From Tetrapyrgos nigripes (Eukaryota > Basidiomycota > Agaricomycetes > Agaricales > Campanellaceae), in the NCBI GenBank assembly GCA_013368315.1, contig JAACJM010000020.1:558001-622000 (forward strand): DNA of 64,000 nt. The letters are read 5' to 3'. Both the position numbers and the translations under genes were made by a program. The notes beneath the pieces were generated by a model. The model saw only the letters and a program-made list of their open reading frames with translations. It was not told the origin of the DNA and searched no databases. Below are positions 16,810 to 32,164 of this stretch, one piece after another (the stretch's first letter is position 1; every line of letters starts with the position of its first letter).

Positions 16810-17579
16810 GATGAAAGTGAGCTGGATGTCGTGAAATACAAAAAAGAAGTAGAAAGGAATGAGCAAGCAAGGCCCGGCCTTGAGTATAGAGGTAAGGAGA
16901 GATGGGGGAGACGGGGAACTTCTTCGGAAGCAAGGCCTTATAAAGCGTGGAGCTACTTTTTATAACCCATTGTTTCTGCGTGGGATAAGAGGCCAGTTTC
17001 TACCCGTCGCTATCGATATAAAGAGTAGCCATCAGAGTGGCATCTGTTGCCAGCTCATTCGAGCCACTCTCATTCCCCAATGTGGTAGGAACACTTGATG
17101 AATTTTTAACTTGTGCATCTTAGTAGCGAATGTTGCTGTTGTTGAATAGCAATGGATAGGAGGCGAGATATACAGTACCCGTCGCTCTCGGTATATAGTC
17201 ATCAGAGTGCATCTGTTACCAACTTGTTCTAGGGGTCAATCACTATGACTACTTTCATCCTCCAATGTGGTTGGAACCATGATGAATCTTCAGCTTGCGC
17301 ATATTGGTAGCACATGTTGGCGTTGTTGGATAGCAATTGAGTCTGATTGTTTGTTGGTATCATCACTGCGGCTGGGATTTGCTGTATCAGAGGGGCTGAG
17401 CTGAGTTGCTAAGAGTCTTGATTCAAGTGGGGCAAAGCCTCATGAGCGCCGCCGCACCGGAAGTTATTTTTAGAACACAAATATCATTACGCCTGTTTTA
17501 CTTGCTAGCCGAGAAAAGTCCAGTTCACAGGAAAAAAAACACCAGCCAGTTGTTTGAATAGAGTATGTGCTAGAACTCT
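16810..17579. other. Intergenic region containing a duplicated block
   Basis: This region holds the promoter of the minus-strand protease copy 2 and the 3' end of the enoyl-CoA isomerase. Most of it is occupied by two diverged copies of a block of about 160 bp (annotated separately). No coding potential beyond short frames is seen. Confidence 0.5.
17001..17339. repeat. Diverged direct duplication of a ~160-bp non-coding block
   Basis: Copy A (about 17001-17156) and copy B (about 17176-17339) both begin TACCCGTCGCT and then share ATCAGAGTG-CATCTGTT, CCAATGTGGT-GGAAC, GATGAAT and GTTGTT-GA-TAGCAA in the same order and spacing. Several small indels and substitutions separate them, so the duplication is not recent. 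No open frame is conserved between them. They could be repeat fragments or duplicated regulatory DNA of the protease. Confidence 0.75.
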
Positions 17580-18726
17580 TCACAGTCTTGCCCTGGCTGC
17601 AGCATCTTCAATATTCGCGTCTATGACCCTGACTTCTTTCTTGATAGTATCCAAAGCATCTCGATAGATTTCCCCCTGCAAGTCGAGACCTCAGCTTCAT
17701 ACATCATGATGTATAAAGGCAGCTGCTCACCTTTATGAGACCCCAAACACCGCCTTTGGCATTGCCTGCCCACTGATCTGCAACCTCTTCTGCCTTGGCA
17801 AGCACGGCCTTGGTATCTCCTTGGACAATGTAATCCACCAATCCTGCGTTCAAAGCTTCTTGCGGAGTGAAACGGTGACCCTCAAGTGCAATCTTCCGTT
17901 GAAGCGGGCCATTGCCAAACTTTGTAATCAAAATACCTCCAAAGGATGTCGGCCATGAAGCACCAAAGTGGACCTTGCCAACCATTCATCAGTATTTGAC
18001 CAACAGGGGAACATCAAAAGATATACACGTACTTCATTCATACACAGCCATGCGTTACGCTTGGATCCGTCCGTCATGACTCTGTAGTCGCAAGCAAGTG
18101 ATAATAAAAAGCCACCTGCGAAACAGTGACCATTGATTGCTGCTATGGTAGGCACTTTGGTAACCATTTGTGAGCGTCTGAATATGATTATCGTATTCTA
18201 GTGCTCACGTGGAAAGGTCATCAGCCGATGGAGTAGAGGATTGAAAACCACTAGGGTGAATGAATGCAGTCCATTAGACGGTGATTCGTGTTCAGCATGA
18301 AAGGGTGCGTACTCGGGAAGAAGTTGGGGTCATCGACGATTTTGGCGAAATCCAGACCTGAGAGGACAAGTTGAGATGATGACGGACTGCCGTTTGGCGA
18401 GCATACCGTTGCTAAAGAACTTATCCTGATCCTTGCGACCCACTATTATCAACGCCCCTTTGCCCTCTTGGCTGTTCTTGTCCTTGCGCGACCTTCTCCA
18501 TCCTTCTCTCCAGTCTCGCTCAACAGTATTCAGAGCCGGTTTAAGACCTTGGTTAATCAATTCTGTAGTGAGGCGCGAATCCTGACCATTATGTAGCTCG
18601 ATAATCCATAGAGACTCCTTGGCTGGTTCAAAGCATGAGGACTGGACAACTCTGAGAAGATTCTGACCTACGATGGGTCAAGGTTATGAGCGGATTGCCT
18701 GCTGGAAGACTGAGAGGGTAAGACAT
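17580..18726 (-). CDS. ECI1: Peroxisomal enoyl-CoA isomerase/hydratase (crotonase family, Eci1-like)
   Basis: Crotonase-fold enzyme, probably Δ3,Δ2-enoyl-CoA isomerase acting on unsaturated fatty acids in peroxisomal β-oxidation. The ATG at 18724-18726 gives MSYPLSLPAGNPLITLTH. A 48-bp intron (about 18622-18670) must be removed to read on into PKESLWIIELHNGQDSRLT. Crotonase landmarks are GALIIVG...KFFSNGLDF (first oxyanion-hole strand), VPTIAAINGHCFAGGFLLSL and the ACDYRVMTDG segment with NEV and HFGASWP after it. Helix residues EALNAGLVDYIV follow. The protein ends AAARARL; the last three residues A-R-L fit the peroxisomal targeting consensus. The stop is at 17580-17582. The intron count is about four or five. 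A hydratase activity instead of isomerase cannot be excluded. Confidence 0.85.
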
Positions 18727-19014
18727 CGTTGATGTACAAGAAATACGATACGATCTAAACTCCAGTCCCTAAACTCCAGTCCGCAAGATATTCACATGTC
18801 AATGCTTATGTTTGAAAATTTGCGAGAGTGATGGAGGACGCGAAGACCAAGAAAACCGGGCTCGTTTTCAGTTCTTCAGACTTGTTACAGGATCGTCCTG
18901 CTGCATTCAGGGAAAGCAAAGACCGACGGCAGTTTGAGTGTAATAAGTGACAGACTGTATACACTACGCGAAGCAACTGCCAAATAATCCACAACTCCTT
19001 CTTCACTTCTAACA

Positions 19015-19365
19015 ATGGCAGTAGACGAAGCCCAACGAGCAGCCATCAAAGGCAAGCAATCGCAATCCTGCTCTGAGCATTCTCTGACGGTTATTTGAAC
19101 AAAACAGCCAAGCTTGCAAGTCGTGACGAACACATACGTGAATCATGGGTCCGCGCGATGGAAGCCAAACTTGTCCGTGACGAGCTGGACAAGTGCCAGA
19201 GGACGGAAGGTGTAAATCACTACGAAAACTGCAAATGGCTTTCCGAACTCTATCTTTCGAAACTGAAGGAGTCAAGGGTGCGTGTACAACCACTTGCGGC
19301 TTGGATGTAACCTGACGCGCCATTACCTCTGTCAGGTGCAAGGCTACAAGCAAATTGATATATGA
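19015..19365 (+). CDS. NDUFB10: NADH:ubiquinone oxidoreductase 12 kDa subunit (NDUFB10/PDSW-like)
   Basis: Small accessory subunit of mitochondrial complex I, about 78 residues. Exon 1 encodes MAVDEAQRAAIK. The first intron (19052-19107) begins with GC (GCAAGC) and ends CAG, because no GT donor gives the correct frame. Exon 2 reads AKLASRDEHIRESWVRAMEA and then LDKCQRTEGVNHYENCKWL, with the two conserved cysteines of the family. The second intron is a regular GT-AG intron (about 19279-19336). The last exon gives RVQGYKQIDI with TGA at 19363-19365. The family call rests on the E-x-I-R-x-SWVxAMEA and GVNHYExCKWL pattern of fungal 12 kDa subunits, recalled from memory. It lies 515 bp upstream of actin on the same strand. 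Confidence 0.75.
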
Positions 19366-19879
19366 TGTTGTATTGCGCATTAGACTTGCTGTAGAATGAC
19401 AAAAGCCCTTCAACACACGTCTGTGGACGTGCCCGTACATCTACTGCGCCTTCATGCATACCTCGGCATGACAAAGCTTGGTCTTAAACCCAGTCGGGAA
19501 ACAACGTTATCTTGCTCAGATTGAGAAGTTCTTACAATGGAATCGCAGTACCGTCTTGTTGAACAGCTACGGAGAAATTGACTATTAGTGTCTGTCGGTC
19601 TGCGCCTTACTACGGACAGTCCCGTCAAGACTTAGTGCCTCTTTCGCAAAACAGACCCGCGAAGGTCGTAGCAGCACTCTCCTCCAGCGCAGTCCAGTTG
19701 CGGAGCACGGTCACCTCTTCGAGTCGTACGATGTAGAGTGTTACGCAGTTATCTGACTGCACGTATGAGTAGGTATAAGAGAGGATCCCAGCTACCGTCA
19801 CTCTTCAGCAACCTCACCTCAATTTTCATACTCTAATCTCACTTGTCTTGCTATCAACAAAACGCCTACATAGCTCAAC
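19366..19879. promoter_or_regulatory. Actin promoter and 5' leader region
   Basis: Gap of about 510 bp upstream of actin. A TATA-like GGTATAAGAGAGG lies about 110 bp before the actin ATG, followed by a pyrimidine-rich stretch (19795-19860), the usual layout of strongly expressed basidiomycete genes. No gene is seen in it. Confidence 0.45.
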
Positions 19880-21497
<1,618 letters not shown>

Positions 21498-21822
21498 TCT
21501 CGACTCTCCGGTCCCCGTCCACGGTTGCTCATGATTGTATAATGTTCTCGTTCCTCTGAAGTTGATACCAGTGCCAAGTTAGTCTAGTATCACGGTTCGC
21601 AGAGAAATGGCATTATGTTATCCATTCACTCTCTTCTCAACCTGAGCTCGAGCATGAAGGTTGTGAAGTGTTTTCGTGATTTTCATACACTATGATACAC
21701 AGTTTACGGGTCCCAGCGTCTTGAGGGCCCAGATAGTTTCAAATCAACTACACATCGCTGTCCTAACGTTCATTTGATGTTCTCGTCCAACACAGCAAGA
21801 TGGAAACGCACCCCGCCGTTGC
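21498..21822. other. Convergent intergenic region, actin / mucin-like gene
   Basis: About 325 bp between two stop codons. It should hold both 3' ends. No gene or repeat is seen. Confidence 0.5.
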
Positions 21823-24800
21823 TCATGCCAAGATCCCTCTCGCATTTCTCATATCTTTAGAGCAGATTTGCATCAGTAGTGAAAACTGCTCAAAGCTCAA
21901 ACCAAGAGGACAAGCGGAGTACATTTGATTGGGGTCGGCGACAAGCAGTGGTGCGACACCACTGAAGTCGATTTCATCAATAATGCAGCTCAGTGGGCAA
22001 GGCTAAAAGATGTCAGTGAAGGACATGCATAGATGCTTGACATACCTTGTTAGATGGCATAGGGGTAGGCTGCGTAACGACGTTCAATCCCAATGTGAAA
22101 TTCGTTGCGGTTATTGCAAAAGACATACCTCCGTGCAATCGTGCGTAGTGGGGGTGGGATGGCAAGTCTGTAAGTGGGTTATCAACTCTGTGAACGTCCG
22201 CGCAGATATCGCAAGACATACTTCAGAGACATGGGTCGTAGTACACGGCATTGTAGAGGTAGGGTGATGAGAAGTCTAAATGTCGCACAATCACATTATA
22301 AAACCTCTCTAAAAACATTGGAAACATACCTCAGTACAACCAGCCATAGTACTGCTTGACATCGTAGATCTCGTCTATATGTTGATCAATGACGCAGCTA
22401 CAATCTCCATCGCTGCTGCAAGACATACCTCTGTGCAATCATTCGTAGAACTGCCTGGTGATGTAGGCTGAGGAGTCTAAAAGCCAGTCAATTACACTGT
22501 AAAGATCTGCGTGGCTATTGCAAGGCATACCTCAGTCGTTGGGGTGCCTGGCATCGTGGGTGTAGACTGGGTCGTCTGAACTCCGGTCAGTTATATTGCC
22601 AAAACGTATGCAGTCATTGCAAGACCTACCACAGTTGCCGAGCTGCTTGGTGTCGTAGACGTAGGCTGACTCTAAACGGCCGTCAGTCATGTTCACTGCG
22701 TATGGATTACAGTACATACCTCAGTCGTTGAGCTGCTTGGCAGCGTAGGCGTAGGCTGAGTCTAAAGGGTGGTCAGTCACATTCACTGAAAAATTCCGCG
22801 TAGGGATTACAGGATATACCTCAGTCGTAGGGCTGCTGGGCATTGTCGATGTAGGAGTCGTCTAAACGTCGGTCATCACTTTAAAACACTATGGGACTAT
22901 CGCAAGACAACACACCTCAGTCGTAGAGTCTGGAGGTGTAGGCTGAGGAGTCTAATGCCGGTGAACAGGTTGTGGAGATCTGACAGCTATGCAGGACATA
23001 CCTCAGTCGTAGAGCTATCTGTAGGCGTAGGCTGAGGAGTCTAATGCCGGTGAACAGGTTGTGAAGATCTGACAGCTATTGCAAGACATACCTCAGTCGT
23101 AGAGCTATCTGTAGGCGTAGGCTGAGGAGTCTAAACGCCGGTGAGCCGCTTATGGAGATCTGACCGCCTGAGGTATTGAAAGACATACCTCAGTCGTAGG
23201 AGGAGTAGGCAATGAAGTCTAAACACCGGTCAGTACCCTGTGAAGATCTGATAACAACTGAGAACTACCTCGGTGGAATCGTTCGTAGAGCTGCCGCCTG
23301 GCACCGTAGGTGTAGGCTGGATGGTCTGAGTATTGGTGAGTCCCATTGAGAAGGCGTGATACCCAACGAAAACATACATCAGTCTCGTCACTTGTCGAGC
23401 TGCTGGGCCACGTAGGTGGCGGCTGGGTAGTCTATGAGTTGGTCAGTCAGGCTGTAGAGATATGTGCAGGTATTCCAAGACATACCCCGGAATCATTGCT
23501 GGGCCACGTAGGGGTAGGCTGAGTATTCTAGACGTCGGTCAGTCGAAGTGTGGAAACATGCGCAGACCCCGAAAACCCTACCTCGGTGCCAGGATTACTT
23601 GTAGATGTAGGTTGGGAAGTCTGATCGTTGTTCGTTCACATGGCGGAACTAAGCTCAGGTGTTAAAAACGCACCTCGGTACCCGAGGCGCCATTGCCCGT
23701 AGAGCCGTTACCGGTAGGGCCACTTCCCGTAGTGCCATTCTCCATAGAGCTGTTACCCATAGTACCGTTCCCAGTAGAGCTGTTCCCAATAGAGCTGTTC
23801 CCAGTAGAGCCATTCCCCGTAGAACCATCCCCTGAACCGTTGCCCGTAGAGCCATTCCCTGAGCCGTTCCCAGTAGAGCCATTACCAGTAGAGGCGGTCC
23901 CAGTAGAGACGTTACCAGTAGAGCCATTACCAGTAGTGCCGTTCTCAGTAGTGCCATTACCAGTAGTGCCATTATCAGTGGGGCCATTGCCTGTAGTTCC
24001 GTTGTCTACGGATCCGCCTGGTGTTGTGCCATTGGTCGTAGAGGTGTCCGGCGTCGTAGGTGTGGGCTGGGATGTCCAAAAGGTCAGTCACATTGTGAAA
24101 AAGCGCGGGCAATTATGGAAGACATACTCCAGTGCCATTGCTTGGAGAGTTATCCGGCGTAGTAGGTGCAGGGTGAGAGGGCTGAGCGTTGATTAGCATT
24201 TTAAGAATACAACCAGTCACCGAAAGACATACCCAAGTGCCCGAATTAGAGTTGTTTGGCGTAGTAGGAGTAGGCTGGAAATTCTGAAGTCAGTACTTCG
24301 CAGGGTGAAAGTACTCATAGACATACTCCACCACCGCTCGGATTAGTGTCGTTCGGCGTAGTAGGTGTAGGCTGGAAAGTTTGAAGTCTGTCTCTGGAAA
24401 TACACAAAGTTACTGAATAACATACCCCGCCACTGCTCGGATTAGTGTCGTTCGGTATCGTAGGTGTAGGTAGGGATGTCTAAAAGGCGTTCAATCAGGA
24501 TTGTGGAACTGAATCAAGCTAATGGAAAATGTGCCTCAGTGGCATCAGCTGTAGAGCTGCCTGGCATCGTGGGTGTAGTTTGGGAAGTCTATACGTGGAT
24601 GAGTTATGTCGTGAAACTTATAGCTAAAGAAAAACATACTCCAGTGCTCGGAGTATTCGCAGCAGTGTCGTGTGTCGTAGTTGGAGTAGGCTGGGGCGTC
24701 GTAGGCGTAGGCTGGGTAGTCTGACCGTCGGGTCAGCTAAATCGTAGGAATAAGCATAGTTATTGAAGATATATACCCCAGTGCTCGAATTGTTCGTGTT

Positions 24801-25897
24801 CGTAGAAGTTTCTGACGTCGTTGATGGTTGTGGAGTCTAGACGTCTGTCACATCAAAAAATTATGGGCGGGCATTGAAAGATATACCCCAGTGCTCGAAT
24901 TGCCCGTAGAAGTGTTCGACGTCGTTGATGGCTGGGGAATCCAAACGTCCGTCAGCCACGGCCCACATGCTGAAATTGCGCGCAGCTCATGGAAAACATA
25001 CCCCGGTACCATTGCTCGTCGCGGTAATAGTATCAGTTGACGTCGTCGTTAATGGCTGCGGAGTCTATATGTCTGTCAGTGATATTATTCGACTGTGCGG
25101 AACTTATTAGAAGAGGTACCCCGGTGACGGTAGTTGTGGTAGTGGTGGTCATGCTCGTGTGACACGGCGTCGTAGTTGTTGGATGGTGAGTGTGACAATC
25201 GCTCGTAGAAGTGTGCAGCGATCTATAATCCTTAGGTATGTTATTGCAACAATTTTCGAGCAACTCGGCGAAGATTCCGATGTCGAGATCCAAAGGACAC
25301 GCAGAGGTTAGCTTATCAACATCGGCGATGAGTTCGCACGCAAGAGAGGAAAAGTTGGTATCGTTGATGATACAACTCTTTGGCCAAGTCTAAACAACGG
25401 TCAGTCACATTGAGGATCAGTTGCGCAGCTATAGGAAATATACCTCAGCGCAGTTGTCGGCGGGCATCGCAACGGTATAAGGCTCTGTGTCCTTGGGCGT
25501 GTCAGCCTAGCCAAGGGTTGGTTAATTTGCCACTGTCATAAGGAATGTGACCGCGCCTTGTCCATATCATCACAACAACCGTGGATCAACCCTTTGAAGC
25601 GTTCCGTGCTCAGATGCGAAGGACAAGCATAGGTCAACACATCAGTGTCGGCGATGAGCTCCTTTGCAACACAACTGTAGTTGATTTCGTTGATGATGCA
25701 ACTCGGCGGGACCGCTGTCTTCATCTGGGGAGCAGTCAGTCACCTTTGTGCTTGCGGAACGCGTGCACACCTACTGTGTTCTGTTGACATTGGGCGAGCG
25801 TGTTCTCAAAGTTGGCGCTTTGAACCCTCGGACCAATTGGAGCAGCAAAGCCACTCTTGACCAGTAACATGAAGCCAAGTGGCTTGAAAAAGGGCAT
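21823..25897 (-). CDS. Secreted mucin-like protein with three Cys modules and a tandem mini-exon array
   Basis: I do not recognise this gene. The ATG at 25895-25897 starts a probable signal peptide (MPFFKPLGFMLLVKSGFAA); exon 1 is 25775-25897. Cys module 1 (about 25557-25724) and module 2 (exon 25120-25389) are near the N-terminus, and module 3 is the last exon (21823-22002, TGA 21823-21825). The modules share SCII-N/D, then about 14 residues to L-x-AD, then ACP, then F and one or two Cys. Between modules 2 and 3 lie 26 mini-exons of mostly 24-70 nt, each separated by introns of roughly 50-60 bp, and one 393-nt exon (23674-24066) rich in N-G-S/T sequons. Typical mini-exon peptide: TPQPTPTDSSTTE. 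All exon lengths I counted are multiples of three with phase-0 joints. Predicted product about 800 residues, heavily O- and N-glycosylated, secreted or wall-associated. The donor of exon 2 and of some mini-exons is uncertain. Confidence 0.7.
22046..25064 (-). repeat. Tandem array of exon-intron units in the mucin-like gene
   Basis: On the plus strand each unit reads: end of an intron as ACATAC, a short exon complement starting CTCAGT or CCCAGT, a GTAGG-GTAGGCTG core, then the acceptor as CT. Checked examples are 22129-22167 (39 nt), 22916-22951 (36), 23002-23040 (39), 23092-23130 (39) and 25002-25064 (63). Units of about 90-110 bp repeat across 3 kb. The units at 22916-23130 are nearly identical in both exon and intron, which shows that duplication copied whole units. 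The 3'-most mini-exon (22046-22069) has lost the usual acceptor but an internal CAG keeps the frame. Confidence 0.8.
23674..24066 (-). repeat. Sequon-rich coding minisatellite in the mucin-like gene
   Basis: A 393-nt exon is built mostly from degenerate 15-nt units encoding N-G-S/T-T-G. Reading the minus strand gives about eighteen N-x-S/T sequons in 131 codons. No stop occurs in this frame although other frames also stay open, as expected for a repeat whose unit is a multiple of three. Length polymorphism between strains is likely. Confidence 0.8.
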
Positions 25898-28061: not shown

Positions 28062-29941
28062 TCACTGCGGTCGACACTCCGGTTCTCCAGGTTGGTCATC
28101 ATCCTCGTCCTCCCAGTCGTCCTCATCGTTACCGAACTGATTCATAAAACCATGATCAAAGAAGTTGCTGCTAGCTTGATAAGATTGTGCACGCACGTCC
28201 ACTATATCACTCTCCTCATACTTGGCTTCATCGACGATCTCTGGTTGTGGATCCACGTCCGCTTTCTTGGGTGGGAGAAGTTTGAGCAGGGCCTGTTGAC
28301 ACATAGGAGTTTAGAGACAGAGTACTATTAGATTAGGCACTGACTCACCTGTTGATCAACAGTGTTTAACCACTGGCTGTCAGGCATCTCAATTTCAAGC
28401 ACAACGTAGAGATCGCCCTTTTGTTCCGAGTGCTTGTACACAGGCATGCCTTCTCCCCGTAGAACAATAGAGCTACCTGAAGACAGAATCTTTCCGGGTG
28501 TTGAAGTGACTTTGATACCCCGTCCATCAAGATGGGTGACGAGAATCCTCGAGAACCCAAGGAGAGCTTCAGAAAGAGTTATTTTGACAGTTGTGAGCAG
28601 GTCATTCCCAGATCGTTCAAAAGACTCATGATGAATCATATCAAGAACAAAGACTACGTCTCCAGCAGGAAGTCCGGGCTAAAAGGGGAAAAAAATCGGC
28701 CGAATTAGCACTGCAGTGGATGTGATTTGGGACGGCATACCTCTTCGTCACCGGCACCTGCAAGAACTATCCTCTGACGATCGGTCATGCCCTTTTCAAT
28801 GAAAAGTTCTTGTCTCGTCTTTTGCGATACAGTTTTTTCGCCTTTACACTTTTTACATCTGAGTAGAGAGCTTAGTCGAGACAAAAACCAATCATCGAAG
28901 CGAAGCATACCTGTCCTTCTCTTTAAGTTTTTCACCAGAGCCATCGCAATCAGAGCATTTGACTCTGGATGTCCCCAGGTGTGAGGGTGATATCTAAGTG
29001 ATGTCAGTGTACGAAATGTTCACAGATGGGTGGGCAACATACGTGGCTTGTAGCAAACGTCCAGCCTTTTCCTTCACATGTTGAACAGGATTTAGGCTTG
29101 CCTTTCCCTCGGGCACCAGTACTGCGAGTGGTAAGTAGGAGTCTGATTCTCTGATGGCAAACGCACTCACCCTTTGCAGACATCACACACGACATCCTTC
29201 TCCATGTTCAACTTGATCGACTTTCCGTTGTACAGGTCTTCCAACGTCACTTCGTGATGATGAACGGAGTCGGTGCCTTTTGTTCTTGGTCTTCCTCCTC
29301 CTCCACCAAGGTCGAATCCAAAGCTAAACCCTCCTCCTCCACCACCACCACCACCAAAGAACTGTGCAAAGATATCGTCCATGTCTCCCATACCTGCCCC
29401 TGCTCGCAAACCATCCATACCACCAGCATCATAGGCTGCTCTTGTATCGGGGTCACTCAAGACCTCATAACTGTCAAATGCAACTCGAGGTCAAGAATAG
29501 GAGATATGACTAATGGGAAACAACGGACGCAGCTTGGACTTCCTGAAATTTTTCTGATGCATCTGGGTCATTGATGTTCTATGGCCTGGATAAGAGGTAG
29601 GGTCAAAGATGACTGGAAGGAGACACGTACTTTGTCCTGCGTAGAACAAGTTCTTCAGGTTAAAGGAACAACTAAGAGTGAGATGTGGACCCACTGGATG
29701 AATATCTCGAGCCTGAATAATTATGAGAGTGTGTTATCTGCAAGAAACGAGTAATCCACCTTCTTTCTGTAGGCCTTCTTGATTTCGACTACACAATGTT
29801 CAGCGGCGCACTGGCTGCTGAGGGTGTCAACTTACCTTCACTTGCGGTCACTGAGACATCGAGCAAATCGTAAAGGTGGGTCTCCACGGGCACTACAGAC
29901 AGGTCATTCAAGAAAATAGACAGGTAAAGGGGACACTTACT
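28062..29941 (-). CDS. Class A (type I) J-domain co-chaperone of Hsp70
   Basis: Hsp40 that stimulates Hsp70 ATPase and binds unfolded protein. Domains in order: J domain with LYDLLDV, KKAYRKKARDIHPDKN and YEVLSDPDTRAAYD; a Gly-rich linker (GGGGGGGGGFSFGF); a four-repeat zinc finger (CDVCKGSG, CSTCEGKG, CSDCDGSG, CKKCKGEK); and client-binding domains containing GDVVFVLD and EMPDSQWL. The tail is acidic (DEDDWEDEDDD) and ends in CRPQ. No ATG precedes PVETHLYDLL in its exon. Removing the intron 29893-29940 joins A (29941) to TGCCCGTGG, so the start codon itself is split. One J-domain intron uses the rare donor GTCCGT. It is Ydj1/Xdj1-like but its C-terminus differs from the usual CAQQ type. Divergent from RCM1. 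Confidence 0.9.
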
Positions 29942-30309
29942 TTGTGAGTAGCAGGTGTGTTGAAGGATCGCCCCGAGGATGACAAAATTGGGCGTGTGAA
30001 CACAAAAGAAAAATTTTGAAATTGCTCGACACGCCTTCGATTGCTGCTTGTTGCTTACCACAACAGTCAACAAGGTGAGATTTTCCTTCCTTTTCACGTT
30101 CTGAATGATGTTTTCTTTCATAACTTATCTACATTGTCCGACTTTGTGACGACTACTATCAACCTGACACCCTCTTCTCTCTGTCTTGACCCCAAGCTGA
30201 CTCGTGTTTCATCAGGTCCAATACTGTCTATCTCGTCCTGTAGTTCCTCTTCACTCTTCATTGCTTCTACAATTCTGATAGGTTCCTGTCTGTACTGTAG
30301 AATGACACC
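29942..30309. promoter_or_regulatory. Divergent promoter region, J-protein / RCM1
   Basis: About 370 bp between the two start codons; it also holds the 5' leader of the J-protein. AT-rich stretches occur near 30005-30020. No heat-shock element with three clear GAA/TTC units was made out by eye. Confidence 0.35.
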
Positions 30310-32164
30310 ATGAATTTTTACTTCTCTGCCGCTGAGGTTCTTAACCGTCTCGATGCCAAGCAAGGTTCTATCAAGGGCCTCATTGCCAACATTCCCGAAA
30401 AAGATAGAAAGAGAACATCTGCACTTGTGATCGAGACCCTCAAATGTAAGGTTGTGCATCCAGACAACTACCTGTACCTAACACACGTCGTAGATAAACC
30501 TGTCCTGACCGAAGTCATCAATGAAGCCAAACTGATGAAGGAAGAGCGGAAAAAACTTACTTCTCTCAGTCTGGTGCTCGTCCTCGTTCACGATCTCCTA
30601 CTGGCCAACGGGATACAAGCAGGGGATGGGCCTATAAAACAAGCCATTCTGCGACACAAGACGCGTCTTCATGGAGAATTTCAGAAACTCAAGATTAAGC
30701 GTGGAGTCAGATCGAATGGAGAATTGGCGCAAGTTGGGGATGCTCGTGCAGGTTCGTCCATGTCATGACTATTTCCATGGCCGATTAACAGCTTGTTCTT
30801 TTCGCAGCGCAAATACCCCGCTATGTCCGTGTCAACACCTGTCTTTGGACAACGCAAGCCGCAATAGCCTACTTCGTTGCCAAAGGCTTTACACTGTCTG
30901 GACCATTTGACTCGTCAAAGTAAGTCGTTCACCTTTTTCTGCGTGAAGAGGAAATCGACTGCTGTGATACAGTAACCGAGGTTTCGCCGAGGATCCTCAC
31001 ATACCCAACCTCTTGCAATTCCATCCTCAAATCTCTTTTCAAGAAGACGCTGCGTATAAGGATGGCAGACTTATACTTCAAGACAAAGCCTCGTGCTTCC
31101 CTGCTATTGTTCTGGACCCCCCGGCTACAGATGAAGCTACAGTTATAGACGCAACGTCCGCTCCGGGGAATAAGACTTCTCATCTTAGTGCGCTCATGAA
31201 AGGAAAGGGGACGGTATATTGTCAATTATGCTCCTAGTCTCAGTCCACCTGAAATGCCATTTCTAGCTTCTGGCTTTTGAGAGAGACAGAAAACGGTTTT
31301 CCACTCTGAAAATGATGCTTTCCAAAGCTACATGCAAAAATGTTACAACTATAAACGCAGACTTTCTGACAACGGATCCCTCGGACTCAAAATATGCACA
31401 GGTTACCCATATGCAAGTGTCCCCTGTTCTCGTGATGGACCCTTGCTGACTGCCATGAAAAAAAAACTCACAGCCTTTTAGATCCTTCTTGTAGTGGTTC
31501 TGGTATCGTCAACAGACTGGATTACCTTCTTGAGTCCGGTAATACTTACCTTCTCGTTATCTTCACTGGCTGACAAGGAATATCTCTTTCATTCAGAACA
31601 AGATGACGACACGGGTCAAGAAGACCGTCTAAACAAGCTGGCTTCTTTCCAGGCTATGATGATCAAGCACGCCATGAAATGTGAGTTTGTATACCGACGG
31701 AGTTGTCATTCCGCTCAAAAGTCTACCAGTCCCCAACGTCCAGAGAATCGTCTACTCCACGTGCAGTATACACGCTATCGAAGACGAACATGTAGTCCGA
31801 GAGGTGCTCAAGTCAGACGAGGCCCTATCTGGTCCCTTCAGGCTTGCACCTGCGGAACAAGTTTTACCGCAATGGACACGTCGAGGTCTCCCAGACGAGA
31901 TGGATGACCCTGGTAAGTGGTTTTAATCTATAGTTACACGTACACCAACTATCAACGATCGGCGCTCGAGCTGACGTTGTTTCAGACCATGCTTCCTCTC
32001 TGGTACGTTGCCTACCTGGGGAAGATGGAACGAATGGTTTCTTTGTGTCGTGTTTCATCAGGAAGGCATCTACATCGAAACGCAAGATCGAAGAAGCTTC
32101 GAATTCCTCCGAAGAAGTGCTGCAGCAGCTTCCGCGGAGAAAGAAGAAAAAGAAGAAAACATAG
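30310..32164 (+). CDS. RCM1: 25S rRNA (cytosine-C5) methyltransferase, NSUN5/Rcm1 family
   Basis: S-adenosylmethionine-dependent m5C methyltransferase of the NOP2/Sun family, acting on large-subunit rRNA in the nucleolus. The ATG at 30310 opens MNFYFSAAEVLNRLDAKQGS. The N-terminal part (YLYLTHVVDKPVLTEV, LVLVHDLLLANGIQ) is typical of NSUN5. Then IPRYVRVNTC, motif I VIDATSAPGNKTSHLSA, the DPSCSGSG motif IV cysteine and the STCSIHAIEDEHVV motif VI cysteine. Motif I reads DATSAPGNKT in place of the common DxCAAPGxKT. The C-terminus is very basic (RRKKKKKKT), a likely nucleolar signal, with TAG at 32162-32164. Around seven introns. Looks intact. Confidence 0.9.

Follow-up and report, generated by a model that had tools for sequence, protein, structure and literature searches.

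The MEGs of Schistosoma encode secreted products and consist of 10-20 very short exons, 6-81 bp long and mostly multiples of three, which are separated by introns of 100 to almost 5000 bp and for which splicing variation is discussed in the extracts available (PMC10526429). The bicycle genes of aphids also code for secreted proteins and contain many small internal exons, almost all of phase 2; a 'megacycle' gene with over 100 microexons is mentioned in the same excerpted account (PMC9168663). According to the part of their description at hand, the SP7-like effectors of arbuscular mycorrhizal fungi are repeat-bearing secreted proteins whose genes have a conserved intron ahead of the first repeat (PMC11333574). 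In Trichoderma, the transcription factor gene Xlr2 contains one fungal microexon with regulated inclusion, as stated in the accessible text (PMC11121469). Among the matches listed from the open-access literature, and within their extracts, no fungal gene with a tandem array of mini-exons was present.

Fungal stalk genes of the FLO adhesin type are intronless, with an S/T-rich arm whose length shifts by repeat copying, and the usual description of a repeat arm in fungi is that of a minisatellite without introns. In animals, symmetric runs of small exons code for the flexible extended regions of titin (PEVK) and tropoelastin, as cassette exons with known isoforms. The gene described here lies on the minus strand of a 64,000-nucleotide stretch of DNA (the window) from Tetrapyrgos nigripes, a member of the Campanellaceae (Agaricales). 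Strain CBS 291.85 of this species is listed, in the extract available, with the code LD, taken here as litter decomposer (PMC9469724).

Dynamic programming was used to build a gene model from generic splice signals of fungi, with no restriction on phase and with in-frame stops barred. The best free-phase model runs on the minus strand from an ATG at 25897 to 21826, with a TGA stop at 21823-21825, and predicts 32 exons, 31 introns of 43-70 nt and a product of 789 residues, all 31 joints being in phase 0. Exons 5-31 (22046-25064) form an array of 27 phase-0 exons coding for an S/T/P-rich arm. Twenty-five of them measure 24-63 nt, one 81 nt and one, exon 14, 393 nt, and all 27 lengths are divisible by three. 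The initial annotation had placed about 26 minus-strand mini-exons with phase-0 joints in this very interval, and the independently built model is in agreement with it: the two ends match the end of exon 31 and the start of exon 5 to the base, and the count is 27, or 26 without exon 14. The exon lengths that it had checked (24, 36, 39, 39, 39 and 63) are all present in exons 31, 25, 15/20/30 and 5, with an uncertain one-to-one matching; exon 21 also measures 39 nt if an upstream acceptor is taken. These results confirm the mini-exon array as a real feature of the sequence.

By its predicted structure the gene resembles the MEGs, since 26 of its 27 array exons measure 24-81 nt, exon 14 being the exception, and all are multiples of three. 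It differs from them by a row of 27 such exons with homologous introns, whose length of 43-70 nt places it outside the MEG class as the extracts describe it. It shares with the bicycle genes many small internal exons of a single phase, but this phase is 0 and not 2, and the extracted text on those genes describes no S/T/P arm and no introns copied in tandem. When the gene is set beside the SP7-like effectors by their excerpted descriptions, intron 4 precedes the first unit, but introns also split all later units, so that an intron before the first unit is not diagnostic of such an effector. Xlr2 has a single microexon, whereas the T. nigripes gene has an array. In gene structure, the run of symmetric small exons is like that of titin PEVK and tropoelastin. 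Exon 14 and the paralogue L011 resemble the single-exon repeats of the FLO type, whereas elsewhere in the array almost every repeat occupies a separate exon. The combination of phase 0, homologous introns of ∼54 nt and a fungal host was absent among the literature matches listed, as far as their extracts extend. Both modes of repeat growth are found in one gene, with the exon 14 minisatellite lying within 26 other array exons, and because this exon and the intronless L011 arm stand beside mini-exons, the effect of introns on repeat decay, homogenisation and frame safety can be compared directly. If splicing of the gene varies, fungi would join the lineages with micro-exon isoform genes, so far flukes and, structurally, aphids.

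Outside the array, exon 1 (25775-25897, 123 nt) encodes a likely signal peptide, judged by eye, and exon 2 (25557-25724) carries the first of three copies of a Cys domain of ∼50 residues, which we named SCII. It is followed by intron 2 (25507-25556), the 63-nt linker exon 3 (25444-25506), intron 3 (25390-25443) and exon 4 (25120-25389), the latter containing Cys domain copy 2 and the beginning of the Thr-rich arm. The C-terminal copy 3 is encoded by exon 32 (21826-22002). This reading of the gene was checked on a relative: the product of the paralogue L010 is identical with the public T. nigripes protein D9758_013328 over 321/321 residues, the end of L010 having been set by eye where the script model overran. 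The first exons of L010 measure 123/162/66 nt, with three phase-0 introns, versus 123/168/63 nt in the array gene, and L010 then continues differently. Introns 2 and 9 (24480-24534) start with poor GC donors, at 25556 and 24534, and may be inefficiently removed; the donors are otherwise GT, and in L010 a GT intron follows the same domain exon. Phase 0 was exclusive in 7 of 9 parameter variants of the model, namely four with a changed intron penalty, two with a changed exon bonus and one in which the branch term was left out. The number of introns was 29 with a penalty of -12, 30 with a bonus of 0.06 and 31 in the other phase-0 variants. The pattern was broken when the exon bonus was set to -0.03 (31 of 33 introns in phase 0) and when GT donors were forced (28 of 31 introns in phase 0), the latter because introns 2 and 9 start with GC.

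We consider it likely that the locus is one gene and encodes a secreted linker protein resembling a mucin, whose arm grew by tandem copying of units made of a mini-exon and a phase-0 intron; the predicted structure with its phase, the homology of the introns and the coding constraint are established at the level of the sequence. One unit, a mini-exon with its ∼54-nt intron, would have been copied repeatedly, about two dozen times, by unequal crossing-over or slippage. The seed was probably intron 3, before the second Cys domain. Both ends of each unit being in phase 0, the arm length would change without frameshift when units are gained, lost or skipped. A uniform phase is expected from copying one unit and is by itself no evidence of selection for shuffling, so that it is largely to be regarded as a by-product of copying. 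A probability calculated with 31 independent phases was dropped, introns 3-30 being largely copies; there are perhaps about four independent phase positions (introns 1 and 2, the intron family and intron 31).

The introns were compared with 156 predicted, unverified introns from 18 control loci, up to 150 of which were sampled per array intron. Introns 5-31 gave a mean mutual score of 6.65 versus -1.09 against the controls, and 58 of their 351 pairs exceeded the 99th percentile of the array-control scores. Among the 28 introns 3-30, 24 had a best partner scoring above all 156 controls, the partner being the best of 30 and therefore favoured by the choice; this was the case for intron 3, the first member of the family, with intron 13, and for intron 9 with intron 20. 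For introns 7, 8, 10 and 28, one of the 156 controls scored as high as the best partner, and introns 1, 2 and 31 had no above-control partner in this comparison. On average, introns 10, 11, 12, 17, 27 and 28 were little closer to the array than to the controls. Tandem Repeats Finder highlighted two units that cover exon and intron: an 89-bp unit (22910-23199; 3.2 copies, 88% matches), which is the least diverged stretch and in which introns 20 and 21 are identical at 57/60 positions, and a 100-bp unit (22698-22879; 1.8 copies, 77% matches). Together with the likeness of the introns, these two repeats indicate that units were copied. The proposal of the initial annotation that the exons were duplicated together with their introns stands in this respect, but the similarity of exons only weakly tracked that of the flanking introns: between units (26 units, without exon 14), the Spearman correlation was 0.144 (p = 0.027) with the upstream intron and 0.081 (p = 0.15, not significant) with the downstream one. 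This weak agreement suggests that older units diverged or recombined. The greater the distance between units, the lower was the similarity, both of exons (0.43, p = 0.0005) and of introns (0.17, p = 0.0035, and 0.21, p = 0.002). Copying therefore seems to have acted locally, with its latest rounds in the 3' half, and the older units are strongly diverged. Exon 14 (23674-24066), in which repeat finding revealed an intronless 15/45-bp minisatellite of the TGNGS type, lies within this array. A second copy of the flanks (29800-31800 and, outside the actin-like part, 17000-21700) was not found in the assembly. As the array and the flanks tried match only themselves apart from actin-like copies, there is no allele for comparison; potential alleles were removed from the T. 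nigripes gene models described in the available part of PMC7368018, whose assembly may differ from this one.

The model bars in-frame stops, so that the open frame counts only through comparison with shuffled sequence; T/P/S-rich codons also make stops rare and thereby favour open frames. The full-gene score was 169 versus at most 52 in the shuffles, of which 28/40 yielded a model and 12/40 none, and 34% of the introns of the shuffle models were in phase 0. A phase-free search for strict introns with short open exons between them gave a chain of 18 introns, all in phase 0, which correspond to introns 14-31 in the 3' part. In 44 control strands the longest such chain had 8 introns (both strands of 22 loci of 10 kb, or 220 kb of the 98-Mb genome, four loci, L010-L013, having been chosen as related genes), and in 200 first-order Markov shuffles it had 7, with a mean of 2.7. 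A gene on the plus strand was rejected: the ORF at 23693-24196 mirrors exon 14 and its neighbours, and the best plus-strand chain of the window, 6 introns of mixed phase, is at control level. The lengths of introns 3-30 fall into the three remainders modulo 3 as 14/8/6, versus 27/27 multiples of three for the array exons. Differences between neighbouring mini-exons were distributed over codon positions 1/2/3 as 53/29/64 (p = 0.0014), and dN/dS over 231 aligned codons was 0.47 in the predicted frame, the two alternative frames giving 1.01 and 1.80; in pairs of Cys domains it was 0.21-0.55 in 4 of 6 comparisons, the other two being saturated. These values support a protein-coding array, and with a constraint specific to the predicted frame it is hardly credible that the model threads introns by chance through a low-complexity, non-coding repeat. 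The dN/dS of 0.47 among the mini-exons also speaks against a formerly expressed gene that is now a pseudogene, although it measures past selection. Such decay would be consistent with the two GC donors and with the public proteins, none of which, at lengths of ∼114-364 or 434-1381 aa, was returned for the array gene; annotation may have skipped the gene, or the protein may have another length, or the model may be wrong. Genes with very short exons are indeed hard for automatic annotation, according to the excerpts of PMC10526429, and the 789-codon open frame threads far better than in shuffles, so that we regard decay as improbable.

A burst of the introner type, in which members of one mobile intron family were separately inserted into an intronless repeat, would account for homologous introns, for the weak correlation between exon and intron similarity and for the intronless S/T repeats of L011 and exon 14. 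The repeat units, however, include exon and intron, intron 3 of the family comes after a linker exon like the one before a phase-0 intron of L010, and a search of the genome assembly, weak for diverged 50-nt introns, gave no copies of the array DNA elsewhere; separate insertion is thus an improbable origin. Tandem copying of whole units could be combined with an additional role as isoform generator, mini-exons being skipped or chosen in many combinations to give many arm lengths. Such a role has been suggested for the schistosome MEGs, and the initial annotation had envisaged many surface isoforms from this locus. All model exons are symmetric and any skip would be frame-safe, but this symmetry follows from copying. 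The two weak GC donors could favour skipping, but skipping a single short exon needs a donor-acceptor span of 126-188 nt versus introns of 43-70 nt. Splicing in fungi proceeds mostly by intron definition, and exon skipping is uncommon among them; with such long spans, skipping is rated below a choice between tandem acceptors. In-frame acceptors 9 nt apart were observed in 11/28 array introns versus 6/155 controls (p = 1e-6, a value that ignores shared descent and so overstates the case). This excess makes choices of three residues the most likely isoforms, and local variation would be mainly of this kind, adding or removing three residues, often TPQ or TTQ. Retention would mostly truncate the product, since an in-frame stop is present in 24 of the 31 introns; three introns lack a stop and have a length divisible by three. 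Any alternative splicing concerns about 6% of fungal genes in the extract consulted (PMC11121469). Generation of many isoforms by skipping appears rather unlikely. It is similarly doubtful that the gene is a fungal counterpart of micro-exon genes, in which paired-acceptor splicing would give graded arm lengths and the number of units would also drift between strains.

For the protein encoded by the copied units and their flanking exons, the predicted layout comprises a likely signal peptide, two small Cys domains, an arm of 522 residues (62% S/T/P) and a third Cys domain. Secretion is probable, the signal peptide having been judged by eye and containing a lysine inside its hydrophobic stretch, and the arm is probably O-glycosylated. 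No GPI-type tail was seen by eye. A search of the Cys domain against Pfam-A returned 0 families at E up to 10. The model of copy 1, obtained from a 3-row alignment, is small and helical (pLDDT 91.5), and its predicted structure had no convincing fold match. From the Cys domains at both ends of the arm we infer a bridging or wall-associated role, on the same footing as splicing, secretion and glycosylation.

L010, L011 and L012 open like the array gene, with a signal-peptide exon, a phase-0 intron and a Cys domain, the motifs being diverged in L011 and L012. In L010 (4052-5301; D9758_013328), the Cys domain is joined to a further segment without Pfam match, which presumably resembles a beta-sandwich of the rhamnosidase type; the structure predicted from the lone sequence was unusable. 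In L011 (4822-5746), the diverged Cys domain is followed by an S/T repeat arm with TCDTMTSSGST and STILP units, which is encoded in a single predicted exon. The predicted model of L012 (4766-6992; C20:513965-516191) runs from the signal-peptide exon and the diverged Cys domain into a kinase-like region, which we take to be casein-kinase-1-like, suggesting a gene fusion if the model is correct. L012 is convergent to an actin-like gene, as is the array gene in the window, where the DNA at 19853-21437 is presumably actin-like from its translation. The contig of the window carries further copies of this actin-like DNA near 516 kb (82%) and 555 kb (71%), partial ones are present on C55 and C78, and one SCII-actin pair resembles a segmental duplication.
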